Positions 33,460-53,413 of a stretch of DNA of 58,516 nucleotides are shown here, in pieces. The stretch is from an uncultured Pirellulaceae bacterium (lineage in GTDB: Bacteria; Planctomycetota; Planctomycetia; Pirellulales; Pirellulaceae). The stretch's first letter is position 1; each line of letters opens with the position of its first letter. The notes below the pieces were generated by a model that had not been told where the DNA came from, searched no databases, and saw nothing but the letters and a program-made list of their open reading frames with translations. The position numbers and the translations under genes were made by a program. Location of the stretch: contig CALCJM010000126.1 of assembly GCA_937967505.1 (NCBI GenBank), forward strand, positions 1 to 58,516. The letters run 5' to 3'.

Positions 33460-36400
33460 TTATTTTGCTGCTTTTTTCTTTGCATTGGCTTTCTTCTTAT
33501 TTTTTCCTGTGGGGGCTGGTTCAGTGGCCCGTGATTCGAAAAGTGTCTTGGTAAACGTGACAATTGTCTCTTCGAGGTCCTTTCGTTTTTTGGCTTCCAG
33601 TGCTTGATTGAAGTTTTCAATAAAGTCCGCAACGTACTTCCATTCCAGTTGCGCGACCGTGTGGGGAACCAGGATACTTCGCAGTGTAATTGTCAAACAC
33701 AGTGCAAAACTGACGACGACGTTCTGCCCACCGCTGCGGAAGACGCAAGATTGCATCTCCAGCAGGCCGGGACAGGTTTCGCCAATGGAGTCCTGGCAAC
33801 AGCTTGCAATGGAGCCTTCGACTGCACTTTTAGCCGCCCAATTATCGGCCAGTTCAAGCGAGTCCCGGCTGATCTGGTTGAGTAGTCCAATCAGTTTTTT
33901 ACGACCGCCAACCTGAAATATTTTGCCTAACCACCCCGTGTGAAATTGTTGGCAAGCCATGCAGATTCCTGCCAGATGGAGCGCCAACACGACGCGCTCC
34001 AGCAATGCTTTGGCGACATCATCTTCTTTTTGGAAGATCGTGTTGAGCGTGTGGTCGGTGACCAATTCTTTCAAAAGCAAATCTCTCAGGTCTTCGTAAA
34101 TTCGTTTTACGTCGCTCTCGGAGGTGTTGTCCAGCATATTGACATCCTGAAAGACGGCATTTCTGTAGGCGTTACGGATGTCAGCGTTTCGTTCCCAGAC
34201 GGTCATCCAGCGGTCAATGGTTGATTCGACCAGCCGATCGATTTCATTGGCCGACACTGGGCTGGGCCGTCGTTTCAGCAGATCGAGTTGGGTACGGGCA
34301 AAATCTGAGAGTGTGCGGACGCCTCGCCGGAAGTGTGGGAACTGATTTTGTTTTGCCTGCCAGATTGCTTCCGCAAAGACATCGTCATCGTCATGAATTG
34401 TTTCGCGAAAACATGACATGCGATACGCCTGAAGGAGTCGGCTTAACACGATACCGAAGAGCGGTTGGGCCTTGTCTTCATTCAGGAAGGTATTCAGCTG
34501 TTTGGTATCGGGCGCACTTGCTCCCTTTTCTTCGCCAAGAAATTGATCTTCCACAATCTCATTTTGAGTTATCGACTCGCCGTTGAATGCCGTCGTGTGG
34601 GTGGCGGCGGATTCCCCAAGTTCCTGTAAATGTTCGAACGAAGCAGCAATCTCATCGGCATCCCAGCGCGCCAGTTCGGAACAGATGATCGAACCAATGT
34701 GATATCCCAGTCGTCGATAGGCTGCGACCTGATCGACGGTGAAAAACTGGTTGGAGGTGGGGTCGTCCGGGAAATGGGGAAACTTTTGCCGGATCTGTCT
34801 GATCTCCAGTGGATCGTCGTCGCTGATTGCCATCTGGGCGTAAACCAGAAATGCATCCTGTAGTCCTTCTTCGCAGTGGGGATAGTCAATTCTCATACAA
34901 ACATAATGCTGGGGAGCCACCGAATCATTTTCCTTGTCCTGCACCGTGTTCTTCTTCGCAACCCTGTCCAGGCGTTTGAAATCAATTGGGCGGTCGTGGT
35001 CCAGGTCCAGAAACCGGACGCCAGTTTCCCGTTGAGCCGTCTCCAGCATTTTGGCCAATGCCTGAAGTTCGTGCTCGTCGCTGTTGACACCCGCATCGCT
35101 GACGACAATCAGGCGGCAACGCCGGTTGAGTAGTTCTTTGACCCCCAAAAAGTCAGCGAAACCTCCGTCGGCGATCAGGCGGTATTCGGAGGAATCTGTC
35201 CCCGGGGCCGGTCTGCCAGGATTGCTCCAGTGATGCCTACAGGTGCGCATCAACTGCATCAGGCGCGAACTGTAACCCCACCAGTAGCGCTTGGCATTTT
35301 CCTGGTCAACACTCTGGTGGACCCGGGCAGGATCGCGCAGACGCCGACCAAGATTAAGTCCAAAGAAATCCATCATCAATCGAGTGGCTTTGTTGTTGGA
35401 CATTTTGTGGGTCAATGCAGCGCCTGAAACACACAACGCATCAGCCAGTTGGATGGATTCACCGGATCCAATCTGGTTCCCGGGGCTGTACTCGTGGGTC
35501 CGGCAATATCCATGTGTTGACGAACCGACAAAAAACGGGCTGAAAATAAACGGATGAGCGACCATCTCACTGGTTGCTTTGTCTGCGGTTAGTTCTGCGG
35601 CGGTAATCAGTGGAATAGGCATACCGGCATGGGTCAGATCAAATTCGTGCAGCGCGAGATTGCCAAAGTTTTTTGTGTCTCCCTTTTTTGCAGACGGTAG
35701 GGTCAGAAAGTGTTCGGCGATCGCGTTTCGATAGAACCGATAGCCTGAAGAATTGAAACGCAACGAACTTGCGGCCAGTCCGAAGCCCCCGGTCAATAGA
35801 AAGAAACCCAGGTACCAAACGCGAGTTTTTTGGTCATCATTGATGACGACGGGAGTGCTGATCACATCGCGCGGCTTGAGTAAATTCGGGTAAGTTAACT
35901 GAAGGCAATCAAGGTTAAAGTCAGCCACTTGGTCTTCTTCACCTGCCGGCGAAAGACTCCGGATAACAGGCTGGTTCTCTTTCACCAAGCCGTTGACACG
36001 CTGAAGGAATTTAAAGCGCCGTTTCCGCGTCCAACCCTTCAGTAACTCGTCGGTCGAACCTAGATTCCTATCAGCGGTCGCCTGCTTGAAGCGTTCTGCA
36101 AGGAACTTGGAAAGGCTAACTTGGCGTAGCTGTTGATTGAATACTTTTAGGAAATCCATCTGCACGTGTTCGGTCTTCCGGAATTTGGCCAGCAGGACGC
36201 CCATGGAAACCATCTTGTCCGAGCCAGCCTGCGCTGCTTGCGTATCGAAGGCTGACAGAGACGGAGTTGACGAAGGCGTGGTGGCTTGCCCGTCTGACGG
36301 GGAGACCACTGTCGGGGAGGGTAAATTGGCCAGCACCCATGCCTGCGGGATGGCGATAAAACGGAGCAGTCTTCCATGGTCAACGACTTTGCCCGTCTGC

Positions 36401-37908: not shown

Positions 37909-38209
37909 GACAGGCGCATGCAGGGAGACCGCGACCGGCTGAAAGTGAATTCAGATTTTGCCAGCCATGAGGACTGAGTGCAACGATTTTTTTCTTGCGG
38001 GTCACAAAAATAACTTCAGTTTCTGATAACCCTGGAAACATGTAGCAAACGGGCAGCGTGCATGTGCTGCGCGAGTTTGTGACTGCGTCCAAGTGCCAAC
38101 CTGCCCTAACGTCCGGTGTCTGTCGCCGGAATTCTTTGACAGTGCCCCGCATAGGTGATATCGTGCGTCCCTGTCTCTGTTGTCTGCCCGTCTCCCATGG
38201 TCCACAAGT
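37909..38209. promoter_or_regulatory. Divergent promoter region of the two patatin genes
   Basis: The 301-base space between the two head-to-head patatin-like genes must carry both promoters. No palindromic operator or clear -35/-10 pair is visible. The shared region suggests co-regulation. Confidence 0.4.
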
Positions 38210-41200
38210 ATGAATTCAAGGAAACACGATACGCGCGAAGCGCAGCATGAAGCACGCAAGGTTGAGTTGGAGGAAGTGATTGGGCAAGAGATTTACTCAT
38301 TCAAGGATGTGTTGCTGGATGAACTAAAGTTCGTCGATCCACAACTGGCACAACGAGAGGAATTGGCCGAAAAAAATCTGGTGGAGATTCAACAGGAGAT
38401 CCTTGCGCGCGACCATTGCGGGTTGGCGATTTCAGGTGGCGGGATTCGGAGTGCCACGTTCGCGTTGGGTGTATTGCAGGGGTTGGCGAAATCAAAGCTG
38501 TTGACGCGGTTCCAATACCTCTCCACTGTCTCAGGCGGCGGCTACATCGGCATGTTTTTCTCAAAATGGGTCAAACAACGCGGCATGGGGCACGTCGTCC
38601 GGGCACTGGCCGGTTCGGATGAATCTGATGCATCGCTCCGGCTTCACGCTCGCAACACCAATGATGCCGGCCCGATCCGGCACCTGCGTCAATACAGCAA
38701 TTATCTTGCACCTCGGCCGAGTCTGCTGTCTTACGACGGTGGCCTGCTATTGGCGATTTACCTGCGTAATTTATTGTTGAACCAATTGGTCATGCTGCTG
38801 GTTGCGATTGGTCTGTTTGTGGCAGTACGTGGCGTTGCAGAAATATACTGCCTGGCAGCGAACAGCTCACCGAGGACGCCAGCTTGGTTTTTTGTGTTGG
38901 CCGTTGGTGGTCTTTCGTTGGCAACGATTGGTATGCTGCATCAGTTTTTCAAACATTGTGATTTACGTAGGGGAGTCGCTGATGAGAGTTCTGATGAACC
39001 GGCTACCGGGACTTCCGGTGAACCGCAGAAACGACAACGGGTGCAGGCGAGAACGGGCCGCGCCAAACTTTACTGGCATGGTTCGTTGGTGACCACATTG
39101 TTGACGGCAATGGCGGTGAGCCTGTTGTTTCATGCCTCTATTGATTCGCCGGAGAAGTTCTCAAGAACTTCGATGTCCGTTGGTAAGGATGATTCATCTT
39201 CGAAATCACAGACTGCGGTTCCGCTCCAGTCACCACCTCGTAAAAAGCAGGCTGGCGAAACCCGGACGGGTGCCCAAGCTACGTTGGGGCAGGCGGCGTT
39301 GGCCTCGGCTGAGGCTGCGCGTTCCGGGAACGCTTCACGCGCAGCGCAAAATCCATTGCCTAAACGCAAGATCGACTATGGCTGTGTTGTCGCAACGTTG
39401 ATTCTTAGCACGCTGGGCTTTGGCTTGCTGGGGATTTGGGTGCGTCGAATCGAGGGGAAGTTTCCCGTCAAAAGGTTGGTGCCTGGTTTTTTGGCAGGTG
39501 CGATCAGCGGAGTCGTATTGGTACTGATTTTGACCTGGTCAACCCAAACGGTGCAAACCGGTCTGACCTTCAGCGTGCCGGCGGTGTTGCTTTCTTTTGT
39601 GCTAAGCGAGATGCTGTTTGTAGGATTTGCAGGGAAGTGGATTGACGAACTTGAACGTGAATGGTGGTCGAGTATCAATTCGAGGTTGATGTTGCTGGCG
39701 GGAGTTTGGATGTCAGTCATGTTTCTTGCAATCTACAGCCCGTGGATCTTCTTTCATATGATGTCAGCGCGAACGACTGGCGTAATTGCGTCGGTCGCCG
39801 GTGCGGGTTGGGTGGGAACGGTGTTGACCGGCCTGTTGGCCGCCTCCTCGAATCAGACGGGCTCCCGGAAAAAGATCTTCTACGAGTTGGCCGCAAAAAT
39901 AGCGCCGGCCGCGTTTGTCGTCCTGTTGCTGGCTTGTGTTTCGGTGGTCTCGGCGTGGTTGGTCTATGTAACGTATGATGCTTTTGACGATGCACAGCTG
40001 ACGGGGCCTATTTCGGAGATTTACTTCAAAGACCTCAATACCGTTACACCCCCATTGGTGTCCGAAGGTTGGCTTTCCAAAGTGACGAGCCCTGTGACAC
40101 TGTTATTTTTTTCGGCATTGAGCCTGGTTGGGGCAGCGGAATTGCTGTCTCGCAAGATCGGGTTGAACACATTTTCGCTGCACAATATGTACGCCAACCG
40201 TCTGGTAAGGTGTTATCTGGGCGCGACATCTGAAGACCGAACACCGAATGCGCTGACCAATTTTGATGCGCGCGACGACGTTGCTTTGACCAGCATTCTC
40301 CCGCAGCCGGAAGTTGATGGTGTCACAGCGCCCTTCCACATTTTTAACGGAGCCCTGAACCACAATACCCCTGCGGGGAACCTTGTCGGGGTGCCGGAAG
40401 ACTACGCCGACGAGATGCGCTACCGTGACCGCAAGGCGGAGTCGTTCGTCTTTACCCCGCGTTTTTGCGGTAGCGATTCGACATCGTATTGTAAAACCGG
40501 ATTGTTTGCCGACGGTGTCACGCTTGGAACGGCCGCTGCAGTTTCAGGGGCGGCAGTTGCACCGAACATGGGCTACCACTCGGCACCGGGAATTACTGCA
40601 TTGCTGACTGTTTTTAACTTGCGGTTGGGGGCGTGGTTTGGCAATCCAATGAACGCAGCAACACGCAACATTGTTGACCCACGAATCGGTTTGCGATTGC
40701 TGGAGTCTGAATTTCTCGGGATCACCAATGCAAAAGATGACTACGTCTACGTTTCTGACGGCGGGCATTTTGAAAACATGGGCGTGTATGAGTTGATCCG
40801 GCGTCGCTGTCGATTTATTGTTGCTGTCGATGCCGATGCGGCACCAACGGTGCGCGAAAATATTGGACGAATTGTTCGGTTGGCCCGGATGGATTTTGGA
40901 GTGCGAATTGAAATCGATGCAACGCCCATCACCCCGGACGAAAACGGTATCTCGACGGCACATCTGGTGGTGGGACGTATTCACTACGGAGATGTACACA
41001 AACCCGCGCGGGAACAGCCTCCCCACGATCCTGATTTTTGCTATGACAACAACCAGGGGATCATCATTTGGATCTCGTTGGCGGTCACAGGAGACGAATC
41101 GGGTGACTTAAAAAACTATCGACAGATGCACGATGACTTTCCCTATCGCTCCACTGCGGATCAGTTCTTTGATGAAAACGAGTTTGAGTCGTACCGGGAA

Positions 41201-41893
41201 TTGGGCGAGCATTCTGTAGAAACGATGCTCAAGCATGTTTCTCTTGGTTCAACGACCGCACCGTGCGGTACCGCCGGTGATTTGGAGGAGCGCGCGTCAG
41301 AGGAGGTTGCCCAATGGGAGGACAAACTCAAACGCTCTTTTACATTTACACTGGAGAACACGAGAACCTCAACGGAATACGAGGAAAGCGAAAAGAAAAT
41401 GGCCTCGTTGTTGAAGCAATCGACCGCGCGTGAACTCTTTGTCAGTGTGTTTAATCGGTGGTTGGCACGGCCCGACCAGTACGATCGCGATGATGTTACA
41501 CAGAATCTCGGTTACGTGACGATCCTGGATAAATTGAGGCAGGATCCGCGACTGAGCCGGTTGGCTGCGCAAATTTACGGGGAGAAAAATGGACAGCCCG
41601 GCAGCGCACCGGTTGCTGAAGATCTGTTTGCCGAAAAAATCATGGTGGGGGAAATGATGACGTTGTTGCAAAATGCGTGGTTCTGTTTGGACCTAGAGTA
41701 CAATTTTTTGCATCCCGTTCACCGTGGCTGGTTGGGCGTATTTCGGCGATGGACTTCCACCCAAGTCTTCCAACAGCACTGGTATCGCGAATCGGACAGC
41801 GCTACTCCCGGAGTCGCGGATGACTTTAGCCCGGTGTTTCGTGAATTCGTCGAATCCATTCGGCGTATCGAATCAACTGGCGATTCATGCTGA
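38210..41893 (+). CDS. Giant patatin-like phospholipase with membrane domain inserted between catalytic motifs (B)
   Basis: From ATG 38210 (MNSRKHDTREAQ; the frame is open to TTG 38180) the protein has 1227 residues. The oxyanion loop LAISGGGIRSATF is near residue 75, the candidate nucleophile Ser108 in STVSGGGYIG, and the catalytic Asp850 in VSDGGHFENMGVYEL. About ten membrane helices occupy residues ~170-650, interrupted by a Lys/Ser-rich loop, and the conserved block AAVSGAAVAPNMGYHS precedes the Asp. After it lies a region of about 375 residues with a conserved DFPYRSTADQFFDENEFESYRELG-like stretch, matched in paralogue A by TSNQFFTVDQVAAYRRLG. This same plan in both genes shows ancient duplication. 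The substrate is unknown. Confidence 0.83.
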   Translation: MNSRKHDTREAQHEARKVELEEVIGQEIYSFKDVLLDELKFVDPQLAQREELAEKNLVEIQQEILARDHCGLAISGGGIRSATFALGVLQGLAKSKLLTRFQYLSTVSGGGYIGMFFSKWVKQRGMGHVVRALAGSDESDASLRLHARNTNDAGPIRHLRQYSNYLAPRPSLLSYDGGLLLAIYLRNLLLNQLVMLLVAIGLFVAVRGVAEIYCLAANSSPRTPAWFFVLAVGGLSLATIGMLHQFFKHCDLRRGVADESSDEPATGTSGEPQKRQRVQARTGRAKLYWHGSLVTTLLTAMAVSLLFHASIDSPEKFSRTSMSVGKDDSSSKSQTAVPLQSPPRKKQAGETRTGAQATLGQAALASAEAARSGNASRAAQNPLPKRKIDYGCVVATLILSTLGFGLLGIWVRRIEGKFPVKRLVPGFLAGAISGVVLVLILTWSTQTVQTGLTFSVPAVLLSFVLSEMLFVGFAGKWIDELEREWWSSINSRLMLLAGVWMSVMFLAIYSPWIFFHMMSARTTGVIASVAGAGWVGTVLTGLLAASSNQTGSRKKIFYELAAKIAPAAFVVLLLACVSVVSAWLVYVTYDAFDDAQLTGPISEIYFKDLNTVTPPLVSEGWLSKVTSPVTLLFFSALSLVGAAELLSRKIGLNTFSLHNMYANRLVRCYLGATSEDRTPNALTNFDARDDVALTSILPQPEVDGVTAPFHIFNGALNHNTPAGNLVGVPEDYADEMRYRDRKAESFVFTPRFCGSDSTSYCKTGLFADGVTLGTAAAVSGAAVAPNMGYHSAPGITALLTVFNLRLGAWFGNPMNAATRNIVDPRIGLRLLESEFLGITNAKDDYVYVSDGGHFENMGVYELIRRRCRFIVAVDADAAPTVRENIGRIVRLARMDFGVRIEIDATPITPDENGISTAHLVVGRIHYGDVHKPAREQPPHDPDFCYDNNQGIIIWISLAVTGDESGDLKNYRQMHDDFPYRSTADQFFDENEFESYRELGEHSVETMLKHVSLGSTTAPCGTAGDLEERASEEVAQWEDKLKRSFTFTLENTRTSTEYEESEKKMASLLKQSTARELFVSVFNRWLARPDQYDRDDVTQNLGYVTILDKLRQDPRLSRLAAQIYGEKNGQPGSAPVAEDLFAEKIMVGEMMTLLQNAWFCLDLEYNFLHPVHRGWLGVFRRWTSTQVFQQHWYRESDSATPGVADDFSPVFREFVESIRRIESTGDSC

Positions 41894-41917: not shown

Positions 41918-42961
41918 CTATCGGCCCGGGTAGATTACGTTGCGAAATTCATTTCGAAATGGTGGTGCAGTCTGCACTGGTGTCGGTGCGGGCGCTGTGT
42001 ATCCGGACGGCGCGACATCGGGGGCAAGATTGACGCGCTGGACATCGCCCGGATCAGGCATCTGCCACATTAAATTCGGGTCGCCATAGAGGCTGTTGAT
42101 CTTGTAGTTGTCCGTTGTCACCAACATCGTGATTTCCTGGCCATTCTGGAACAGGTGCAGCTCAATTTTCTTTGGCAGGCTAATGTTGTGCCGGGGGTAA
42201 TAAACATAGTCGGTGGAATTGGTGAACGCGATCAAATGTCCCCGGTGATCGTACAGGGACTGCTGTTCGATGATGCCGCGTCTGGCATCAAAGACCGTCA
42301 CCCGGTACTGTTTGCCCAAGGCACCCGGGCGACTGCTGATCATTTGCATCCGTCCACCGGGTTGAGCGGTCGGGCGCGAATGAGATTGATAGGCGGAAAA
42401 ATCGACCAGCCCCAATGCCTCGATTAACCATTCAGGCTCTAGCGGGACGGCTTGGCGAATCTTTGATGTGGACTGGCGGAAGCCTTGGTGGCTGGCGTAC
42501 ATCAACGTTGGCGACTGGCCGGGTAAGGCAACGCGCGTCCAAATCCAGAACAGTTCGTCGTTGCTGCCAACATCGACACCCATTTCGTTCATTCCCAAAA
42601 CACCCGCTTTTAGGCGCATACGTTTGGGCCGCTCAATTTGAATAGAACCGCGCAACTTGGGAGTGCCCGTCATGGCCACCTGTATGCGGGCATCGATCTG
42701 TTTCACCTTGGCGGTGTGCTGAAGTACCCAGGTAAGAAACTGTTGTTGGTTTGGCGGAGCGTTGAAGGCCGCCGGGATGGCATTGGCGGGAGTGTTGTCT
42801 CCAAATGCGTTTCGCAACCCGCGCAACCACTGTCCGTGAGCCCGGTCGGGCGTCGCGGTGAAAAACACCCAACCGGCGACCAACAGCAGCGCGTACCAGC
42901 GACCACGGTTGCCGATCGCGGTACGCCTGACGCGATGAAACGGTTTGTTGTGATGGATCAT
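41918..42961 (-). CDS. Exported LolA/DUF2092-like protein
   Basis: The start at 42961 (MIHHNKPFHRVRRTA) is chosen because it gives a signal peptide (WYALLLVAGWVFFTA, cleavage after AHG); the frame is open to 43129, but that extension would be translated from the palindromic repeat at 43004-43106. The mature 300-residue protein has a LolA-like beta fold pattern: VKQIDARIQVAMTGTPKLRGSIQIERPKRMRLKA split by strands, NDELFWIW, YRVTVFDARRGIIEQQSLYDHRG, and LPKKIELHLFQNGQEI. Such proteins bind lipids or lipoprotein tails in the periplasm. It ends with a Pro-rich tail. It converges on patatin B. Confidence 0.7.
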   Translation of the reverse strand: MIHHNKPFHRVRRTAIGNRGRWYALLLVAGWVFFTATPDRAHGQWLRGLRNAFGDNTPANAIPAAFNAPPNQQQFLTWVLQHTAKVKQIDARIQVAMTGTPKLRGSIQIERPKRMRLKAGVLGMNEMGVDVGSNDELFWIWTRVALPGQSPTLMYASHQGFRQSTSKIRQAVPLEPEWLIEALGLVDFSAYQSHSRPTAQPGGRMQMISSRPGALGKQYRVTVFDARRGIIEQQSLYDHRGHLIAFTNSTDYVYYPRHNISLPKKIELHLFQNGQEITMLVTTDNYKINSLYGDPNLMWQMPDPGDVQRVNLAPDVAPSGYTAPAPTPVQTAPPFRNEFRNVIYPGR

Positions 42962-43003
42962 CAAGTGGATTTCTGTTGTGGGCAGAGCGGAGTTGGATAG
43001 TGC

Positions 43004-43106
43004 TTGGGCGATTGGCAGTTGAAAGCTTGCCGTTGGCGATGCTGCCAGCTTCGCTCCGACGCTCTCAGCGTCGCCAACGCATGGTAAATTCCTAACTGCC
43101 AGTCGC
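43004..43106. repeat. REPIN-like 103-bp palindromic element, copy 2
   Basis: Second copy of the 103-base unit at 22639-22741. Here the ends form a 13-bp terminal inverted repeat with one mismatch (GCGATTGGCAGTT against AACTGCCAGTCGC). The inner hairpin is GACGCT-CTC-AGCGTC, where both differing bases relative to copy 1 (GATGCT-CTC-AGCATC) change together and keep the pairing. It lies between the two minus-strand genes at 42961 and 43146, upstream of the LolA-like gene. Confidence 0.9.
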
Positions 43107-43145
43107 CTTAATGGGCTGGTTTGTTTCACGCTTCAGTCTGAGGGG

Positions 43146-43796
43146 TCAGGTGTCGTCCGGATCGATGGGGCGGTCGGAGAACAGATTTTCAGCCAGTTGT
43201 TGTTGGATGGCTTCGATTTGATCCGGATGAAGATCCGGCTCCTGTAGCCGGTATTCAACTCCTGTTTTCTTGTTGACCAAATAGAGTGCGTCTGATTCGG
43301 GATCCCCATCGATGCGCGTCAGCAGTTTCTTTTGCAATAGCAGTAGCGCCGTCACCCAAGCCGTTTCGCGCTGTTGATTTGTGCTGTCGGCGTGACCGGG
43401 TTTCAGGGCTTCAAACCAGGCGATCAACACCTGGTCCGGAGCCCAGTAGACTTTGCCGGATTCCAGATCGGGCGCGCGTTGCTTCCACCAGCCAATCAGC
43501 TGACCGTCGCCCAAATCGGCGGACTCTGGCGAATTTTCAGGGGCAGATTTGTGCCAGACGCTTGCCTTCCACGCGTCAACGCTGAAGTCACTGCGGACGG
43601 TGCCTGCGGATGTTTCGATCAGAGCCGAGTAAAAAATATCGCCAGGTCCAAAAGGTTGTTCGGATACACAGCATTTCCTCGATCCGCGTTTGACATCAAA
43701 CTGCTGCATGCGTGTCTTTCGGGAGCTTGTTTGCCAGGCTGCCGCCGTTTCCTGTTGAGGAAAGTGGGGCAAAAGGTCAGTTTCGACTGGTTTCAT
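43146..43796 (-). CDS. Planctomycete conserved hypothetical with Cys-pair motif
   Basis: The 216-residue soluble protein has a motif near residue 40, RKCCVSEQPFGPGDIFYSAL, followed by TVRSDFSVDAWKASVW. This pattern (C-x-x-[ST]-x-x-x-[FL]-xPGE-x-[FY]-YS, then R-x-D-[FY]-S-x-x-W) I associate with a small planctomycete family of unknown function. The middle contains WTALLLLQKKLL-type helices and DALYLVNKKTGVEYRL. No signal peptide or membrane segment is visible. It precedes the LolA-like gene with the palindromic repeat in between. Function is unknown. Confidence 0.65.
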   Translation of the reverse strand: MKPVETDLLPHFPQQETAAAWQTSSRKTRMQQFDVKRGSRKCCVSEQPFGPGDIFYSALIETSAGTVRSDFSVDAWKASVWHKSAPENSPESADLGDGQLIGWWKQRAPDLESGKVYWAPDQVLIAWFEALKPGHADSTNQQRETAWVTALLLLQKKLLTRIDGDPESDALYLVNKKTGVEYRLQEPDLHPDQIEAIQQQLAENLFSDRPIDPDDT

Positions 43797-44158: not shown

Positions 44159-46660
44159 ATGCCCGTTAACTCGAAAAGAACAGCTATGAAAAAGTCAACT
44201 AAGAAAACAGCATCTCCCAAGCCTCGACGATCACGCAAACAGGGCATGGACTACGCAACTCTCGAAGACAGAAAACTATTGGCGGTGACAACAGGATTTG
44301 CACCGGGGACCGGTGTCCTGTCCATCAACCTGACGGAGAATAACGATCTGGCGGTTGTGGATGTCTCCAGCAGCAACGTCGTCGTCAACGGTGCACAGGT
44401 CACGACCGGCATTGCCGCGAGCGATGTTCGGGAAATTCAGGTGACGGGGCTTGCATCGACGGCCAATCAGGCCGTCGCGTTCAACGGCAATTTCTCCAAC
44501 GCGGCCGGCAACGCGCTGACGGACATCAGCGTTTTGAATCTCAGTCAGGTGACGATTAACGGTGCTTATGACGTTTCCAATGACTTTGACGTGACCATGG
44601 TCGGCGCAGGCGGACAACTTGGCGATGCAACCGCCGGGCGTATCCGTGTTGATGGGCAGACTACGATCGTCGCCAATAACAATTCGGTGGTGTTGAACAA
44701 CACAACGAACAACTTCAACGATGTGAGTGTCACGACTGGTGGAACGGCACGCGATGTTTCGCTGGGTGACGTGAACGCGATCAACTTTACCAATGTAAAT
44801 GTCTCCGGTGATCTAGTCGTCAATGCGGGCGGGACGGTTTCCGATTCTACCGGCACTACGATTTTGGTCCGGGGTGAAGGCGATTTCACCGCCAGCAACG
44901 TTCTGCTGGGTGGTGCCAACGACAACACACGTTTCCTGCGGACATCATTTAATGTGACCGCTGTGGTGGATGTCCAGGAAGATGACAATACCGTTCTGGG
45001 TGATGTTCAGGCCGGTTCCCTTCGGCTGGCATCAGAGGGTCGGATTCTCGATGGCAGGACCACGACCATCAATGTCAATGGACTGGCAGAGCTGTTCGGC
45101 AACGCCGGTGTTCGACTTGGTGACAATGGTGTCGATGTTTTCAATGCCGGCAGCGTTAATTTCCAGTCGCAGGGACAAGTTTCAATCAATGAGGATTCTG
45201 CGATCAACATCGTTGGCGACAACACGGCCCGGTCGATGAACCTGCGATCACGTGCATCGATTACCGATGCCGATGACGCGACAATCAATGTTCAGTTCCA
45301 GTCCGGGTTTACCGCATTAAGCGTCCGCATCGGTGATACTGCCGGTGACCAGTTCAATTCGAACTCGATCTACTTCTTCACTGAAGGAAGGTTTGATCTG
45401 AGTGAGGACTCGGACATGCTGGTCATCGAAGAAAAGAACTTCGCCCAGAGCATGCGTCTGCGTTCCACCGGCCAGATTGACGACGGTGCCGACGCCAGGA
45501 TGACCATTACCAATCTGGCTGAATTCGAGGCCAATCGTGCGATCATCGGTGACCTTGCGACCGACTTTTTCACTGCCGGGTCAATTCGGTACGATGTCGA
45601 TACCCAGTTCCGAATCACGGAAAACAACGACACCAACATCCTAGGTGTCAACCGGGCCGAAAATTCGATCGTTAATTCAGTTGGCAATTTGACCAACAGT
45701 GCGGACGCCGACATTGTGGTACAGAATAATGCCTCGTTCCGTGGTAATTCGGTCAACATTGGCAACCAATCGGGTGACAACGCACAGTTTGGCAGTCTGA
45801 CATTTATTACGCCCAACGTGCCGATCAACAATGCACCGGCAGGGTTTGCCAGTGTCAACATCACCGAAGACGACACGACCTTGCTGGGTGGCAACAGTCG
45901 CGCCGGAACGACCGAGCAGGTGGTCAATGGTCAGACGATCGCGGCTATCGCCGGAAATGTGCGGATTCAGTCTGCCGGAAATATTTTTGACGGTTCCAAT
46001 TCTTCAGTCAACGTGACCGGCAACACCCGTCTGACCACCGAAAATAATGGCAATATCACCATCGGCGACTCTGGTGTTTCCAATGGTGTGGCGTTTGACT
46101 CTACCTTCAACACCGGATCTCTGACCGTCAACACCGACGGAACCGGCAACGCACGGATCTATGAAGATAGCGCTATTTTCCTGGTAGGCAACAGTCAGAC
46201 AAACAGTTTGCTGTTGGATGCCAACGATGGTCAATCGAACATTACCGATTCGGCGACGGCCCAGACCAATGTGAATTTCAATCTGAATCTGCGTGGTGCG
46301 TTGATTAATCTTGGCACAGGGGTCGATCCTGCCGACAGCAATGTGAACACGGACATGCTGAACTTCAGCACGTTGACCTTCAACTCAACGGGTAACACGA
46401 ACGTATCGGCTGATTCTGAAATCCGTTTGGTGGGTTCCAGTTCGGCTGATAACCTGACGCTGGCATCGACGGGGAACATTATTGACATTTCGACGCCGAC
46501 GGCACCTGCCCGCACGATCGTCCAGACATCGGCCAACTTCACCGCGGTGGATGCAATCATTGGCGAATTTGGTGACGACTTCTTCAACATTGTCAGCGGT
46601 GCCACACCGGGGGTTGCTGGTGTGACTGGAGTCGAAAACATCCAGGTGAACCGCAGCTAA
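44159..46660 (+). CDS. LEPR-XLL-type surface protein with beta-solenoid-like repeats
   Basis: The 833-residue protein starts at ATG 44159 with GGAGG nine bases upstream. A Lys/Arg-rich leader (residues 1-29) is followed by a LEPR-XLL-like motif, YATLEDRKLLAV (residues 32-43), the N-terminal signature of large planctomycete exported proteins. The rest is made of about seven diverged repeats of 75-90 residues with the pattern ITEDSxxxLVGxNxAxSxxLxSxGxIxDxxDAxxxVxxxAxFxAxxIxIGDxxxDxFNxGSLxF. This is Asn/Asp/Gly/Ser-rich and suggests a secreted beta-solenoid adhesin or wall component. No membrane anchor or C-terminal sorting tag is evident. A terminator follows the stop, and the SecA-like gene comes next on the same strand. 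Confidence 0.8.
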   Translation: MPVNSKRTAMKKSTKKTASPKPRRSRKQGMDYATLEDRKLLAVTTGFAPGTGVLSINLTENNDLAVVDVSSSNVVVNGAQVTTGIAASDVREIQVTGLASTANQAVAFNGNFSNAAGNALTDISVLNLSQVTINGAYDVSNDFDVTMVGAGGQLGDATAGRIRVDGQTTIVANNNSVVLNNTTNNFNDVSVTTGGTARDVSLGDVNAINFTNVNVSGDLVVNAGGTVSDSTGTTILVRGEGDFTASNVLLGGANDNTRFLRTSFNVTAVVDVQEDDNTVLGDVQAGSLRLASEGRILDGRTTTINVNGLAELFGNAGVRLGDNGVDVFNAGSVNFQSQGQVSINEDSAINIVGDNTARSMNLRSRASITDADDATINVQFQSGFTALSVRIGDTAGDQFNSNSIYFFTEGRFDLSEDSDMLVIEEKNFAQSMRLRSTGQIDDGADARMTITNLAEFEANRAIIGDLATDFFTAGSIRYDVDTQFRITENNDTNILGVNRAENSIVNSVGNLTNSADADIVVQNNASFRGNSVNIGNQSGDNAQFGSLTFITPNVPINNAPAGFASVNITEDDTTLLGGNSRAGTTEQVVNGQTIAAIAGNVRIQSAGNIFDGSNSSVNVTGNTRLTTENNGNITIGDSGVSNGVAFDSTFNTGSLTVNTDGTGNARIYEDSAIFLVGNSQTNSLLLDANDGQSNITDSATAQTNVNFNLNLRGALINLGTGVDPADSNVNTDMLNFSTLTFNSTGNTNVSADSEIRLVGSSSADNLTLASTGNIIDISTPTAPARTIVQTSANFTAVDAIIGEFGDDFFNIVSGATPGVAGVTGVENIQVNRS

Positions 46661-46691
46661 ATGGAATCGACGAACGGATGAAAAACGAAAG

Positions 46692-46718
46692 CACGCTCGG
46701 TAACGGGCGTGTTTTTTT
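46692..46718 (+). terminator. Rho-independent terminator after the LEPR-XLL gene
   Basis: The stem CACGCTC / GGGCGTG (one G-T wobble) around a six-base loop is followed by seven T. It lies 32 bases after the stop at 46660, so the surface-protein gene is probably transcribed separately from the export genes downstream. Confidence 0.75.
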
Positions 46719-46917
46719 GCGCTGGATTTGTGGGCCACGCTGGTCGGCCAGGTGTTTGGTGGGGCGGTTGGTTCAGGTTAGGTGGGCTGTGTGAGTCTGT
46801 TTGGGATGTTTTTTTGCCAGTCGCAGGTCGCGCTTAATCCAATGTTGGCTACAATTGGCGTTACCGCCGGTGGATGGCGGTGCTGACAGACCATTGACCT
46901 CCAGAAAAATTGCTGCT

Positions 46918-48795
46918 GTGAAACTTGCTTTTCTTTCGCGCGTTAAAACGTTGTGTAAACGCTACGCCAATAAATCAGACGAAGAGTTACGCGATATTGC
47001 TCTGGATTTGGGATTCGAATCGCGTCAGTACGACAATGTCGTCCGGTTGATCGATCGCGGATTTGCTCTGGTGAAAGAAATGTCCCGGCGGAAGCTGGGG
47101 ATGGACCATTACGACGTCCAGTTGATTGGCGGCCGCGCAATGTGCCAGGGACATGTGGCCGAAATGCGGACCGGTGAGGGGAAAACGCTGACTGCGACGT
47201 TGCCGATGTTTGTCAATTCGTTGTCCGGACGTGGGGCGTTGCTGGCCACCACCAATGACTATCTGGCCAAACGCGACGCCGAACTGATGCAGCAGGTTTA
47301 TCTGGCGTTGGGGAAAACCGTTGGCGTGATTCAGACCGAAATGTCGCGCGAACAGCGACGGGCGTCTTATGCGTGTGACATCACCTACGGGACGATGAAA
47401 GAATTCGGTTTTGATTTTTTGCGCGACCACTCGTACCAGCGACAGCAGAAGGAACAGATGGCCTACAGCGGTGGAGGCGGGCACCAAGCGTCTGTTGAGC
47501 GTGCCGAACTGGCTGCCGTTCACCGCCGACCCAATTTCTTGCTGATCGACGAAGCGGATAGTATTCTGATCGACGATGCGCGGACGCCCTTGATTATTTC
47601 CGCCGCCGAAGATGGCGAAACGATGGAGCAGCAAAAGGAACTGTACCGCTGGACAGCCCGGGCTGCCGAGGAGTTTGTCGAAGACGAAGACTACTGGTAC
47701 GACCGCGAGAAGCGACGCGTCGATTTGACACCCGAAGGAATGTCTTTGGTTCGTAAAATTACCAAACCCGCGTCGTTGGCAGGAATCGGACTCCTAGAGA
47801 TGTATGACTTTATGGAGCGTGGCATTCAGGTCGCCAGAGATTTCAAAAAGGACCGTGACTATGTCATTCGTGAGGGCGAGATCGTGATCGTCGATGAATC
47901 GACCGGCCGCATCGCCGAGGGGCGGCGGTGGAGTCGAGGCATCCACCAAGCGATTGAGGCGCGTGAATCGGTGGAACTGACGATGGACACCGAAACCCAG
48001 GCGAAGATCACCGTACAGTCACTGGTCAGTCGTTTTCCACATGTCAGCGGGATGACGGGAACGGCCTGGACCGCGCGGACGGAATTTAAAAAAATCTATC
48101 AGATGCCCGTCAGTGTGATTCCCACCAACCGGCCCCTGAAGCGAAAAGAACTACCCATCAAGTATCTTCCCACCGAGGATGCGAAGTGGCGACAAATTGT
48201 CCAAGACGTAATAGAGATCCACAATCAGGGACGCCCGATCCTAGTGGGTACACGCTCAATTGCAAAATCAGAAATTTTGGCGAAGTACTTTATCGAGGCC
48301 AATCTGCCGCATGAGGTGCTCAATGCGCGGCAGATCGAACGGGAGGCGGAGATCGTCGCCGCTGCCGGTGAACAGGGACGTGTGACCGTCGCCACCAATA
48401 TGGCAGGACGCGGAACAGACATCAAAATCTCGGATGAGGTCAAGGCGTTGGGAGGCCTGCATGTGATCGGGACTGAGATGCACGAGTCCAGTCGCATTGA
48501 CCAGCAACTATTTGGACGTTGTGGCCGGCAGGGAGACCCCGGCACGGTGCAGCTGTATATTTCCGCAGATGACCAGTTATTGGAGGCCGCCTTCGGTGTC
48601 CCCACGGCCATCAAGTACCGGAAGGCGGCCAAAAGTCGCGGCCGCAAGTATTGGATTTCCATGTTTAAAAAGGCGCAACTGAAAGTTGAAAATCAGCACT
48701 ATCGGTCGCGGAAGATCCTCATGTTCAGCGAAAAGCAGCTGGCAAAATCACAGCGCGAAATGGGGCTGGACCCGATTCTGGATAACTATGAGTGA
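46918..48795 (+). CDS. Short SecA paralogue (SecA2-like ATPase)
   Basis: From GTG 46918 (VKLAFLSRVKTL) the protein has 625 residues; the frame is open to TTG 46801, but that part has no SecA features. Motor motifs are intact: MRTGEGKTL (Walker A 86-90), DEAD at 211-214 in LIDEADSILIDDARTPLIIS, GMTGTAWT, NMAGRGTDIKI, and GRCGRQGDPG. After the last motor motif only about 80 residues remain, so most of the helical scaffold, the helical-wing domain and the C-terminal zinc motif of housekeeping SecA (about 850-950 residues) are absent. It sits between a LEPR-XLL surface protein and two HlyD-type membrane proteins. I infer a dedicated export motor for surface proteins rather than the main translocase. 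Confidence 0.85.
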   Translation: MKLAFLSRVKTLCKRYANKSDEELRDIALDLGFESRQYDNVVRLIDRGFALVKEMSRRKLGMDHYDVQLIGGRAMCQGHVAEMRTGEGKTLTATLPMFVNSLSGRGALLATTNDYLAKRDAELMQQVYLALGKTVGVIQTEMSREQRRASYACDITYGTMKEFGFDFLRDHSYQRQQKEQMAYSGGGGHQASVERAELAAVHRRPNFLLIDEADSILIDDARTPLIISAAEDGETMEQQKELYRWTARAAEEFVEDEDYWYDREKRRVDLTPEGMSLVRKITKPASLAGIGLLEMYDFMERGIQVARDFKKDRDYVIREGEIVIVDESTGRIAEGRRWSRGIHQAIEARESVELTMDTETQAKITVQSLVSRFPHVSGMTGTAWTARTEFKKIYQMPVSVIPTNRPLKRKELPIKYLPTEDAKWRQIVQDVIEIHNQGRPILVGTRSIAKSEILAKYFIEANLPHEVLNARQIEREAEIVAAAGEQGRVTVATNMAGRGTDIKISDEVKALGGLHVIGTEMHESSRIDQQLFGRCGRQGDPGTVQLYISADDQLLEAAFGVPTAIKYRKAAKSRGRKYWISMFKKAQLKVENQHYRSRKILMFSEKQLAKSQREMGLDPILDNYE

Positions 48796-48999
48796 TTTAT
48801 AGTCCTGCTGGCGGGGCTGGGAACTGACCGTTTGGCGCGGTTGTTACCCCAATGCGGCAGCGGTACCTTTCACATTAGCGGCAGTTTGAAGTTTCACGCC
48901 CGCCAAGTCCGGTTTATACTGGGGAAATCGGGATCGTCCCTGCCCTGACCCTTCCGGGCGTCGTTTTCTTTTTTCAGTTACCTCTGATCGTTCTTTCGC

Positions 49000-51066
49000 A
49001 TGTCTACCGGCCAACAACAAGCCACCACTGAACAACTTAAAGACGAAGTCCGCCAGGCGGTCCGGAACCTGACCGAGTTCAGTCGCACGGCCGACAATTA
49101 CGGTCAGTTCTGTGAGAGAGTGCTGAACGATATCGTACGGATTACCGGAGCCCACGGTGCGCTACTGTGGGAGATGCAGCAATCCAACAGCCCCCCTGCC
49201 CTGTCGGGTTTTTCCGGTCAGGCACCAGACGATCAGGCACGCGCCATTCTTTCTCCGGAGAACGAAGGGCACACCCGGATGCTGATGGAGGTGATCGGAA
49301 AAAAAGCCCCTGTCGGAATCACCTCCGATGCCTTTACCGGCCCCGTTGATCCTGACGCACCGGTCGAGACGACTCCGTTTCTGATGTTGTTGGCACCCGT
49401 TGTTAATCGCCAACAACAGTGCTACGGCACACTGGAGCTGGTCCAGCGCGGCAACATTGGCAAATCAGCCCAGGAGGGCTACCTTCGTTTCCTTGCACAG
49501 ATCGCTCAACTGTTCACGCGCTGGCATGAGCACCGTGACCTGAACCGTTTATCCCAATCGGCGGATCAATGGGGGCGTAAAGTTGAATTCATCAATGAAG
49601 TTCACCAGTCGATCGACGGTAAAGAAACCGCCTACGCGATCGCCAATGAAGCGCGGCGATTGTTGAAGGCGGACCGGGTCAGTGTCGGTAAGTGGAATGG
49701 TCGGCGCTGCAAAGTGATCGCGATCAGCAGCCAGGACCGGTTTGACAACCGTGCCAACGTAGTGCGGAAGTTATCCAAAGTGGCCACGGCCAGTGTCGCT
49801 GCCGATACGCAGTTCTGGATCACCGGCGATACCGACGGCATTGCACCTGAAGTGGCGCGAAAAATCAATGACTATCTGGATGAGTCAAACTGTCGGACCT
49901 TTGCCGTGATTCCGCTGGTCAAACGGCCCGATGATGCACCTAACCTAGAACAGAAAAAACGACGTCGGGAGAAACCGGTCAAATTGGGTGCGCTGATCGT
50001 CGAATACTTCGATGCTGACGTGACGCAGGAGCAAATTGCAGATGACTGTGGTCTGATCGTCAGTCAGTCCCAGTTGGCACTGAATAATGCTCGCCGCCAC
50101 AACGAAATTTTTATGGCACCCGTCTGGAAAAAATTGGGCTGGCTGCAAACGTTTTTGTTCCGTGACCACTTCGCCAAAACGATGACCGGGCTGGTTGCGT
50201 TTGCGGGGCTGGTGTTGGCGATGATTTTTGTGCCCACCGAGTTAAAGATGCATGTGGACGGGGTCATGCATCCCCAGATTCGCCAGAACATTTACGCCCA
50301 AACTCCCGGCACGGTCGATGAAATTTTCATTGATGAAGACAGCAGCGTCGAAGAAAGCACGCCGCTGATGAGGCTGAGGAATGTTGATCTGGAGGTTCAG
50401 CTGAACCAGACAGAAAAACAGCTGTTAACCCTGGAGTCTCAAATCGAGGGTTTGGAGTATCAGCTAAGCCAGGGGCGACGCGGCGATGCGGGGCAACGAG
50501 ATTCGGGGGTCGATGCCGGTGCCCAATTCCAGATGCTCAAGGAGCAGAAGGCCAACCAGAAGGAACTGATGAAATTGCTGGAGAAAAAGCAGAAGATGCT
50601 CGACGTGAGGGCACCGCTGGCCGGCAGCGTGATCACACGTGATCCGCAACGATTGAAAGATTACCCCGTAAATCCCGGCCAGAAGTTGTTGACGATCAGC
50701 CAGTTGGATGGTCCGTGGGAGTTGGAGATCAAGATTCCACAGCACAAGATTGGCTATATTGATGATGCCATCCGCGTGGCAAAAGAGGATGACGAGGGGC
50801 GTCTGCTGCGGGTGACGTATATTGTCTCTACCAATCCCAACGCGACATTGGAGGGAGAGTTGGTGCGGATCAGTGACCGGACGTTCCCCGATGATCAGGG
50901 AGTGCCTCACTATCGCGGTGTGGTGCGAGCCCTTGATATTGAGAATCTCGAAAAACCTCGTCCGGGTGCCGGCGTGACGGCCAGCATCGAATGCGGTCAA
51001 CGCTCGCTGGGGTTCCGCTGTTTCTATCAGCTGTGGGACTGGTACCGGACGCAGGTGATTTTTTAA
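49000..51066 (+). CDS. GAF-domain membrane fusion (HlyD-like) protein
   Basis: The 688-residue protein has two GAF-like domains in its cytoplasmic half (about residues 30-170 and 195-360). One membrane helix follows (about 398-420, TMTGLVAFAGLVLAMIFVP). Then comes a periplasmic HlyD/biotinyl-lipoyl part (NIYAQTPGTVDEIFIDEDSSVEESTPLMRL), a coiled coil (470-545) and a beta-barrel segment ending at Phe688. Thus a ligand-sensing module is linked to a periplasmic adaptor. It begins 204 bases after the SecA-like gene and is 79 bases before the PqqD/M50 gene. No ABC exporter or outer-membrane channel is encoded nearby, so how it works as an adaptor is open. Confidence 0.85.
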   Translation: MSTGQQQATTEQLKDEVRQAVRNLTEFSRTADNYGQFCERVLNDIVRITGAHGALLWEMQQSNSPPALSGFSGQAPDDQARAILSPENEGHTRMLMEVIGKKAPVGITSDAFTGPVDPDAPVETTPFLMLLAPVVNRQQQCYGTLELVQRGNIGKSAQEGYLRFLAQIAQLFTRWHEHRDLNRLSQSADQWGRKVEFINEVHQSIDGKETAYAIANEARRLLKADRVSVGKWNGRRCKVIAISSQDRFDNRANVVRKLSKVATASVAADTQFWITGDTDGIAPEVARKINDYLDESNCRTFAVIPLVKRPDDAPNLEQKKRRREKPVKLGALIVEYFDADVTQEQIADDCGLIVSQSQLALNNARRHNEIFMAPVWKKLGWLQTFLFRDHFAKTMTGLVAFAGLVLAMIFVPTELKMHVDGVMHPQIRQNIYAQTPGTVDEIFIDEDSSVEESTPLMRLRNVDLEVQLNQTEKQLLTLESQIEGLEYQLSQGRRGDAGQRDSGVDAGAQFQMLKEQKANQKELMKLLEKKQKMLDVRAPLAGSVITRDPQRLKDYPVNPGQKLLTISQLDGPWELEIKIPQHKIGYIDDAIRVAKEDDEGRLLRVTYIVSTNPNATLEGELVRISDRTFPDDQGVPHYRGVVRALDIENLEKPRPGAGVTASIECGQRSLGFRCFYQLWDWYRTQVIF

Positions 51067-51145
51067 TCCGGGTGGTTTTACCCGGAACCGTTGGTCGTTT
51101 CGCCTACTTTCGGTTTATTGTTCTGTTCACTCATCGGCATTGTTG

Positions 51146-53413
51146 ATGTCCATCGCGCTTCCTCCATCGGAAAAATCTCAGTACACCGGCACGCCGGTGC
51201 GGATGAAAATGCGACCGGACCTGACGTTCGACCTACAGGACTATCAGGGAGTTGAGTTCTGGGTGGTCAAGGAGCCGCTGGGCCAGAAGTACTTTCAGTT
51301 TCCTCCCAGTGTGTTCTATTTGCTGCAGGAGCTGGACGGTAACCAGACGATTGACGAACTTCAGGACAAGTATCACAAAAAATTTGCTCCCAAACGAATC
51401 ACGCGCCAGGATCTGCAACAGTTGCTGACGCGGTTCCATAACGATGGATTGGTCACTTCGGATGTGAGCGGTCAGGGCGTCGAACTGCTCAAACGGGGCG
51501 AAAAAAATACGCGTATGGAGCGTTTCCAGACGCTGTCAAATGTTCTGGCGATTCGCTATCGCGGATTTGATCCGGAACTGATCCTAAATTGGTTGAACAA
51601 GTGGCTGTGGTGGATTTTTACGCTGCCATGTGTTTGCGTGGTGGCGATTGCGGCTTCGATCGCGATGTTGAGCGTACTGGCCAACTGGACAGCGTTTCAA
51701 AGTCGGTTACCGGGATTTGAAGCGTTCTTCGATCCGCATCAGTGGTATCTGTTTGTGGGGGTGCTGTGCGTTACCAAAGTTTGCCACGAATTTGGGCATG
51801 GGCTATCGTGTAAACGGCTGGGCGGTGAATGCCATGAAATTGGATTTATGTTACTGGTGCTGACACCCTGTTTGTACTGTAACGTATCCGATAGTTGGCG
51901 GTTGAATAATAAATGGCATCGGGCCGCGATTGGCGCGGCGGGAATGTATGTCGAAATTATCTTGGCGACGATCGCAACGTTTGTCTGGTGGTTCGCGCAG
52001 CCGGGACTGGTGGAGGAGATCTGTTTAAAGGTGATGCTGGTCAGTTCGGTCAGTACGGTATTGTTCAACGGAAACCCGTTGCTGCGTTTTGATGGATACT
52101 ACATCCTGAGCGACCTTCTGGAGATACCGAACCTGGCGCAGAAATCGACCAAATCGCTCACCACATTGCTGGGGCGGCACTGGTTGGGGCTGGAGATCCC
52201 CGACGATCATCTGATGCCCACCAACCGGCCATGGGCGTTTGCAATGTTTACGACCGCGTCGTTTTGCTATCGCTGGTTAATCATGTTTTCGATTATCTAC
52301 TTCCTGACCACGTGGCTGGAGCCATACGGGCTGGAGTCTGTCGGGATCGGGATCGCGCTGTTTTCCATGATCGGTATGGTCGTCATGCCGTGTTTCAAGC
52401 TTTACAAGTACATGTCAGTTCCGGGGCGGATGCATCAGGTGAAAAAGGTCAGATTCTTTTCGGTATTGGGCGCAATTTTATTGACGCTGGCGATCATCTT
52501 GCTGACGCCGCTGCCGCACTATTTACGCTGTTCGATGGTCGTCGTTCCCGACAGTCTGGAAACCATCTATATCGAGGAGGAGGGGATCCTCGAAGAGTGT
52601 CTGGTGCAGCCCGGCGACAAAGTCCGCAAGGGGCAACCGTTGGCTCGATTGTCGAATCTGGAACTGGAGCTGAACCTAGTGGAAAACGAGGGGAAGCTGC
52701 GAGCCAAGGAACTTGAGGTCGCCACGATGATGGCGGCCGGCGCGATCGACAATACCGGCCGCCACTTGGACCAGTTGACCATGTTGAATTCCGAGATCCG
52801 GGAATTGACCCAGTTGACTGAGAACCTGCGTCGGCAAAGTGAAAAACTGACCTTGCGATCGCGGTTTATGGAAGGCACGGTTTTGGAGACTCCCTACAAG
52901 CACCAGGTGACCAGTCGCGAGGAAGATCCCGACATGGATCAATCTGCATTGCTGTCGGACAAAAACTTCAGCGTCTCGGTCGCACGCGGACAGCGCTTTT
53001 GCGAGGTTGCTGATTTGTCAAAGTGGCAGGCGTATGTACTGCTGACCGAACACCAGATCAAATTCGCGAAAATTGGCAACGAGGCGGTGATGAAACTGTA
53101 CTATCGCCCGTGGGAGAAGATCAAAGGGCCGATTGAGCAGATCGGCGTGACGGACATGTCGATTGACCGCGAAAACTACGAAATGAGCCAACAGAAGATC
53201 GCATCACTGGGCCAGCAGAACGATATTCCCGATCTGGTCCTGGAAATGGTGGCCCAGTATCAGAAACCGGAGTTGCAGTATTACGCCCGGGTGCCTTTGG
53301 AAAACGCCCAGAAACTGCGGATCGGTGTGGGTGGGCAGGCGCGTCTGTTCTCCGGTTACCGGTCGCTGGGAGCGCGATTCCTCTGGTGGATCAATCAGAC
53401 GTTCCGAATGTAA
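51146..53413 (+). CDS. PqqD-like / M50 membrane protease-like / HlyD fusion protein
   Basis: The ATG at 51146 is used (two TTG codons precede it). In 755 residues one sees: a PqqD-like winged-helix domain (about 30-105; QFPPSVFYLLQELDGNQTIDEL); a membrane region with the M50 site-2-protease zinc motif HEFGH (214-218) and the second motif NPLLRFDG (Asn310 to Asp316), so all metal ligands are present; further helices up to about 465; and a periplasmic lipoyl/HlyD domain (EEEGILEECLVQPGDKVRKGQPLARL near 475) with coiled coil. PqqD-like domains bind leader peptides in RiPP pathways. I infer substrate recognition, intramembrane cleavage or channel function, and hand-over to the periplasm. It is the last gene of the plus-strand cluster. 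Confidence 0.85.
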   Translation: MSIALPPSEKSQYTGTPVRMKMRPDLTFDLQDYQGVEFWVVKEPLGQKYFQFPPSVFYLLQELDGNQTIDELQDKYHKKFAPKRITRQDLQQLLTRFHNDGLVTSDVSGQGVELLKRGEKNTRMERFQTLSNVLAIRYRGFDPELILNWLNKWLWWIFTLPCVCVVAIAASIAMLSVLANWTAFQSRLPGFEAFFDPHQWYLFVGVLCVTKVCHEFGHGLSCKRLGGECHEIGFMLLVLTPCLYCNVSDSWRLNNKWHRAAIGAAGMYVEIILATIATFVWWFAQPGLVEEICLKVMLVSSVSTVLFNGNPLLRFDGYYILSDLLEIPNLAQKSTKSLTTLLGRHWLGLEIPDDHLMPTNRPWAFAMFTTASFCYRWLIMFSIIYFLTTWLEPYGLESVGIGIALFSMIGMVVMPCFKLYKYMSVPGRMHQVKKVRFFSVLGAILLTLAIILLTPLPHYLRCSMVVVPDSLETIYIEEEGILEECLVQPGDKVRKGQPLARLSNLELELNLVENEGKLRAKELEVATMMAAGAIDNTGRHLDQLTMLNSEIRELTQLTENLRRQSEKLTLRSRFMEGTVLETPYKHQVTSREEDPDMDQSALLSDKNFSVSVARGQRFCEVADLSKWQAYVLLTEHQIKFAKIGNEAVMKLYYRPWEKIKGPIEQIGVTDMSIDRENYEMSQQKIASLGQQNDIPDLVLEMVAQYQKPELQYYARVPLENAQKLRIGVGGQARLFSGYRSLGARFLWWINQTFRM

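Follow-up and report, generated by a model that had tools for sequence, protein, structure and literature searches.

A secondary SecA, GAF-HlyD and M50-HlyD gene cluster linked to LExRxLL leader proteins: a probable export and processing apparatus in Planctomycetota and Proteobacteria

Contig CALCJM010000126.1 of an uncultured Pirellulaceae bacterium (assembly GCA_937967505.1), analysed here over its full 58,516 nucleotides (the window), carries an array of four plus-strand genes, all present as open reading frames where the initial annotation had placed them. They encode a repeat protein of 833 residues, a secondary SecA ATPase, an adaptor with GAF and HlyD domains, and a fusion of a PqqD-like domain, an M50 metalloprotease and an HlyD arm (Table 1). 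We propose that the last three genes (46801-53413) probably form a dedicated apparatus for the export and processing of proteins with a basic N-terminus followed by a LExRxLL motif, and that the upstream 833-residue protein is one of the substrates. The proposal rests on gene linkage, genome co-occurrence, domain content and a predicted fold. The functional linkage between machinery and leader is largely supported, and the proposed mechanism of leader recognition, cleavage and transport is plausible.

Gene linkage was found on plasmids. The window M50 protein and the window SecA were used as tblastn queries against 72,556 plasmids, and ten of the matching records were opened without knowledge of their neighbouring genes. 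When the Pontibrevibacter protein served as query, 13 records (its own included) matched it along 99% or more of its length at no less than 34% identity; nine were already among the first ten and four were opened afterwards. In all 13 records, which come from several alphaproteobacterial families, a giant open frame on the upstream side of the machinery contains a match to the curated model NF012209 (LEPR-8K, 24 positions long) above its cut-off of 17 bits. GAF-HlyD homologues are adjacent in 13/13 and a secondary SecA (SecA2) in 12/13, and some of the loci also hold TolC and RND-type adaptors. Within the first ten records, 10 of the 11 above-cut-off NF012209 matches adjoin the machinery found first and the eleventh adjoins a second set; in Pseudosulfitobacter a second giant LEPR gene is followed by a second complete machinery set. 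The giant genes of Pseudosulfitobacter, Thalassospira and Pontibrevibacter bear the NCBI product name 'LEPR-XLL domain-containing protein'. The arrangement spans the record origin in W05 and W14, and the frame in W14 is open on both sides of it. Two others, W06 (CP081100.1, where the origin is also spanned) and W08 (NZ_CP140808.1, near 733300), have an interrupted giant leader frame, with another long frame of 4,238 and 2,158 residues, respectively, between it and the machinery; in the closely similar record W12 the giant leader gene is one annotated gene. A reverse search with one 34-residue leader returned 11 records, of which nine are among the linked plasmids (own record included). The other two are a weak match in Paenarthrobacter (E 8) and a new locus in Terrarubrum, where a 5,482-residue leader gene precedes an Ig-like gene, a DUF3467 gene, a hypothetical gene and HlyD, at which the stretch ends. 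A small DUF3467 gene separates the giant gene from the machinery in Thalassospira, Methylosinus, Mesorhizobium, Pontibrevibacter, Pseudohalocynthiibacter and Terrarubrum (L124, L125, L126, L129, L155 and L209).

Co-occurrence was assessed in 292 Planctomycetota genomes. Model A1 of the M50 fusion matched 83 of them, or 78 once five weak ones were dropped, and NF012209 scored above its cut-off in 44. Among the matches listed, the M50 protein is present in 38 of 40 LEPR genomes (Fisher p 2e-23), and the association persists by genus (35/37, p 2e-20) and outside the class of the window (23/25, p 8e-19), descent being handled in these p values by the genus count only. The two LEPR genomes lacking the M50 protein are G132 and G235, the latter with a 138-residue frame containing a stop. 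A leader model of our own (A5, E<=0.01) finds a match in 48 of the 78 M50 genomes versus 10 of the 214 others. Each of the eight genomes sampled from the window's family has a match, and the window's own genome has 24. Ten of the 145 leader matches listed have a scored M50 gene within 20 kb, where 2.1 would be expected (p 7e-5), and GAF-HlyD homologues adjoin M50 in 63 of 80 loci. In Blastopirellula marina DSM 3645 and in G254, genes for SecA2, GAF-HlyD, HlyD and M50 are flanked by three and four leader genes, respectively. Leader matches at G158:C13:44365-44454 and G132:C42:95659, with no M50 fusion found, may be real exceptions or cases of missed machinery. One further planctomycete genome (G189) has 23 LEPR matches, one of them in a frame of 10,951 residues.

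The source genome (5.03 Mb in 183 contigs, 88.9% complete, the window being contig C126) has its nearest relatives in Planctomycetota, including Pirellulaceae, and close versions of the window M50 protein occur in six relatives (L043-L047 and L071). Cargo orthologues were found in two of the six (G292 and G295) at 47-48% identity, beside the same neighbour gene (p43146) as in the window, with the leaders SLEDRKMLTA and TLEERRVLATT; both contigs stop just past the cargo gene. All six relatives have other leader matches, 3 to 26 per genome. Whether this cargo sits beside the machinery thus varies among the relatives, whereas leader proteins occur in every one of them. The window's own genome encodes further machinery sets in addition to about two dozen leader matches. 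Contig C166 (from 17601; L019-L021) has a divergent cluster with two secondary SecA genes and an M50 fusion, in which GAF-HlyD is replaced by an HlyD adaptor without a GAF domain by Pfam at E<=0.01, and in which a second HlyD protein has 292 residues. The cluster also has a TolC-type outer-membrane efflux gene (PF02321) and lies beside an open frame of 8,472 residues that starts with SIIESLEDRVLFDG and has the leader LEDRVLFDG. On C114, SecA2, HlyD, a GAF-HlyD-like gene and M50 lie at the contig start, while C178 (SecA2) and C74 (M50) have no partner genes nearby.

The 833-residue protein has three DUF5649 repeat stretches (PF18886, E 6e-7), no cysteine and, in a hydropathy scan, no transmembrane segment. 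Its N-terminus is basic and then carries a divergent LExRxLL motif, and model A5, which includes the window cargo row itself, matches it with 36.8 bits. Only the E and R of LExR are invariant among 28 aligned leaders. Averaged over 11 residues, hydropathy within the first 80 residues peaks at 1.3-1.8 in seven cargos versus 2.0-2.8 in three neighbours chosen for their signal-peptide-like look; the cargo leaders are without a strong hydrophobic core.

The fusion protein has HEFGH at residues 216-220, six transmembrane-like windows and an HlyD arm. It shows the HExxH, distal Asp and membrane core of M50 proteases, and the HExxH and Asp of the site are invariant. The Pfam match to PqqD is weak (E 0.024), and the predicted fold of residues 20-109 matches complexes of leaders with RiPP (ribosomally synthesized and post-translationally modified peptide) recognition elements (RREs), which, at the level of predicted structure, supports the initial annotation in its reading of this PqqD-like domain as a putative RRE. 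NF041824, the daptide metalloprotease model, covers residues 37-416 including the RRE part (E 3e-50), with 171.3 bits against an equivalog cut-off of 300. The adaptor has two GAF stretches, HlyD_3 and one transmembrane-like window at residues 394-412.

The secondary SecA matches the Pfam domains SecA_DEAD (E 2e-93), cross-linking (E 4e-28) and P-loop (E 6e-55), and has no SW domain by Pfam. Its alignment to solved SecA chains 765-841 residues long, which we take to be B. subtilis SecA, covers residues 31-608 of these chains. Because the alignment stops at about residue 608, approximately the C-terminal third of SecA is missing; the GEGKT and DEAD motifs are intact, and the truncated SecA-type gene of the initial annotation is confirmed. 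A relative (L046) begins VKLTFL, and the true start is therefore probably further downstream than the open frame (Table 1). The protein is a paralogue of the canonical SecA encoded on contig C77. In a tree of 29 sequences, drawn without Gram-positive SecA2 proteins, the four canonical SecAs form one branch (100/99), the window protein clusters with planctomycete secondary SecAs, and those of C114/C166 and of Alphaproteobacteria form separate branches. The window protein scores below the cut-off of every SecA2 model in NCBIfam.

These features suggest a possible sequence of events. The RRE domain of the fusion would bind the leader, as RREs bind RiPP leaders; the secondary SecA, judging from its family and intact motifs, would pass the chain, still unfolded, on to the inner membrane through repeated rounds of ATP hydrolysis; and the M50 site, with its invariant residues, could cut the leader during or after transfer. 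From their fold, the two HlyD arms may then carry the chain across the envelope together with a TolC-type channel, which is linked in some relatives, and the GAF domains might gate the process via an unknown cytoplasmic ligand. The weakest step of this scheme is SecA2 as the motor.

A group of lower-similarity plasmid M50-HlyD loci, intended as a negative control, turned out to be a sister system, and there is therefore no clean negative control of M50-HlyD systems. Eight records were read (E. coli, two Azospirillum, Variovorax, Burkholderia, Magnetospirillum, Tistrella and Phyllobacterium). In six of them LExRxx(F/Y)D leaders occur nearby: M50-HlyD, with further adaptors and TolC, adjoins giant genes with such leaders in the two Azospirillum, Variovorax, Burkholderia anthina and E. 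coli, and in Tistrella, an unannotated record, a 1,893-residue leader frame lies ~5 kb downstream. No such neighbour was seen in Magnetospirillum, which has a short ELWxxDGT open reading frame, or in Phyllobacterium, which has a HrpK-domain protein. NF012209 exceeds its cut-off in both Azospirillum, in Tistrella and in Burkholderia, half of the eight records, and does not in E. coli, Variovorax, Magnetospirillum and Phyllobacterium. On the E. coli plasmid NZ_CP081687.1 (44829-64580; L158), TolC, two adaptors and M50-HlyD lie beside a giant Ig-like gene that starts LESRQLFDGA, and matches to the same M50 region occur on plasmids of Escherichia (18 records) and Citrobacter (8 records).

Several observations weigh against the proposal that the window cluster exports LExRxLL proteins, the 833-residue protein among them. 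The genome-wide co-occurrence suggested as a check in the initial annotation holds from LEPR to M50 but is incomplete in the other direction, where 30 of the 78 machinery genomes have no leader match with A5 at E<=0.01 and 40, among the matches listed, no NF012209 match above the cut-off. The 30 either have variant leaders missed by A5 or carry systems that serve something else. Conversely, the ten A5 matches in genomes without the M50 fusion include one, in G158, at 3e-5. Most of the Planctomycetota leader matches listed (135/145) are far from any scored M50 gene; such scatter is more like that of a sorting tag which one shared machine reads than like one-to-one pairing. Synteny of SecA-like and HlyD genes, also expected from the start, is found on 12 of the 13 plasmids, the exception being the stretch beside the Thalassospira system, but only in 11 of the 80 loci from Planctomycetota; contig ends cut many of the other 69. 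SecA2 was likewise not found in the stretches read of the eight sister loci; as six of these have leader neighbours, SecA2 may be dispensable or replaced. The LEPR-XLL-type N-terminus ascribed to the cargo stands by motif (LEDRKLLA) but not by the curated cut-offs: NF012209 has no match to the full protein at E<=1 and misses it among 14 own-genome matches at E<=10, and PF07595 (Planc_extracel; 20 positions, cut-off 25.5 bits) gives 12.1 bits on residues 34-43 and 10.4 bits on the cargo orthologue in L190. At E<=1e-5 the cargo has an orthologue in only two of the six close relatives, and in the other four SecA2 comes directly after p43146. No TolC or SecY match was obtained in a scan of eight window proteins, and the intrinsic terminator between the first two genes splits the cargo gene from the machinery in transcription. 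That the machinery serves LEPR-XLL-type proteins is strongly supported by comparative genomics, through the plasmid linkage and the Planctomycetota co-occurrence, and qualified by the machinery genomes without a detected leader.

Part of this evidence would fit an apparatus that processes or anchors LExR proteins, which would exit via canonical SecA/SecYEG and then be cut, retained or released, somewhat like LapA under LapD/LapG. M50 proteases usually process membrane proteins, the GAF domains suggest regulated release, and SecA2 is not beside M50 in the 69 Planctomycetota loci (many cut by contig ends) or in the sister loci. However, the low leader hydropathy (1.3-1.8 versus 2.0-2.8) argues against this route, and the HlyD arms, with the TolC and RND-type adaptors of some plasmid loci, indicate transport; we regard this alternative as unlikely. 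Conventional type I secretion via an unlinked HlyB-type ABC exporter, with the cluster as extra adaptors, is quite improbable. The window's own genome does encode an HlyB-like protein (673 bits), type I systems typically secrete giant repeat adhesins, a published survey assigns DDxP giants to the type I system (PMC7730722), and looser ABC matches (E<=1e-100) in 248 of the 292 genomes make another ABC exporter conceivable. Against this, none of the 292 genomes reaches the HlyB cut-off (TIGR01846) and the four-gene cluster is without an ABC gene. Full-length HlyB-like proteins (at least 460 bits) occur in 16 genomes, or 17 if G155 is counted, which was left out as its match begins at profile position 63; the overlap is with 4 of the 40 listed LEPR genomes (p 0.25); plain type I secretion was rejected as a candidate, as these proteins do not track LEPR. 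Least probable is coincidental co-inheritance of two gene sets that mark large-genome, giant-protein lineages without a direct functional tie, for although most listed Planctomycetota leader matches are far from machinery and the adjacent cargo is missing in four close relatives, the linkage is gene by gene in 13/13 plasmid records from several families, where LEPR matches are nearly exclusive to it, and the association persists by genus and outside the window's own class.

The terminator noted after the first gene was confirmed and is absent from the list of a consensus terminator scan. Upstream, two minus-strand genes of unknown function (41918-43129 and 43146-43796) are kept beside the SecA2 cluster or the cargo in relatives L044, L045, L047, L071 and L190. 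Two very large proteins, at 33460-37908 (-) and 38180-41893 (+), have GGGIRSATF-type motifs, which we take to be those of patatin-like phospholipases; for the second protein, Pfam gives no match above cut-off.

Table 1. Positions of the candidate cargo, the machinery genes and their elements in the window
Feature	Position	Strand	Basis
Repeat protein, 833 aa, probable exported cargo	44159..46660	+	DUF5649 repeats; leader motif YATLEDRKLLA at residues 33-43
Coding stretch of cargo LExRxLL leader region	44219..44314	+	Leader model A5
Intrinsic terminator between cargo and machinery genes	46692..46718	+	dG -18.8, z -5.0
Secondary SecA ATPase (SecA2-like)	46801..48795	+	Pfam SecA domains; start probably near 46918
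GAF-GAF-TM (transmembrane)-HlyD adaptor	49000..51066	+	Pfam GAF stretches and HlyD_3
RRE(PqqD-like)-M50 protease-HlyD fusion protein	51140..53413	+	Pfam/NCBIfam domains
RRE/PqqD-like domain, fusion-protein residues 20-109	51197..51466	+	

The pairing of machinery and leader assigns a substrate class and a candidate signal to a secretion-like cluster that has been an orphan since its description in 2015. It likewise offers a candidate export route for the widespread motif with which giant surface proteins begin. We know of no exit route for the huge proteins of Planctomycetota. If the proposal is correct, leader-recognition domains act not only on small peptides but also on proteins as long as ~13,000 residues. 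The sister class broadens the leader-machinery pattern beyond the SecA2 branch, and the pairing makes simple genetic tests possible in laboratory strains. We see about an even chance that these systems are a separate export class, in which a RiPP-style leader-recognition domain, joined in one protein with an intramembrane protease and an HlyD conduit, reads an N-terminal LExR tag. A SecA without its C-terminal third would power one branch, the substrates would include some of the largest proteins of bacteria, in two or more phyla, and the SecA2-less LExRxx(F/Y)D sister branch would reach Beta- and Gammaproteobacteria, including E. coli plasmids.

The locus type was published, without a substrate, by Kamneva, Poudel and Ward in 2015 (PMC4452313), who proposed a secretion-related role and termed its broader biological role completely unknown. 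In the laboratory strain Methylobacterium extorquens AM1 they place the locus at META1p2399-2402. Their secondary SecA_DEAD/type I-related locus, from phyla that include Planctomycetes and Proteobacteria, is of the same type as ours: a SecA without most or all of the wing-scaffold, with M50, HlyD and GAF-HlyD proteins. The window likewise has a second SecA_DEAD protein without scaffold/wing and M50 and GAF-HlyD neighbours. The main text of that paper contains no occurrence of LEPR, giant, adhesin or PqqD and names no substrate, leader or PqqD/RRE. Two papers in the literature searched name LEPR-XLL, one of them in a novel Vibrio protein of ~8000 residues (PMC10868602), and another paper describes Planctomycetota as unusually rich in huge proteins (PMC11573180). 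In the literature searched, no paper ties NF012209 or PF07595 to an export machine, in agreement with the earlier statement that LEPR-XLL has no known export route, the machinery itself having been published in 2015. Locus type and motif are thus each known, and their pairing is absent from the literature searched.

Other known systems share parts of the arrangement. The cargo has in common with the NF012209 and PF07595 families a LExRxLL near the N-terminus of large, often repeat-rich proteins, and differs from them in its LEDRKLLA and in scores under both cut-offs. The fusion shares the HExxH membrane protease of the daptide and epipeptide metalloproteases (NF041824 and NF058609), but scores 171 against 300 bits, has an extra HlyD arm and would act on large proteins, not small peptides. 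In Gram-positive accessory SecA2 systems a second SecA likewise serves selected surface proteins, whereas no SecY or accessory Sec match was obtained among the eight window proteins, SecY2 not having been searched genome-wide. HlyB/HlyD/TolC type I secretion shares HlyD/MacA-type arms, TolC in some relatives and giant repeat substrates; the window cluster differs in having no ABC exporter, a proposed signal at the N-terminus and, in one branch, a SecA-type ATPase instead.
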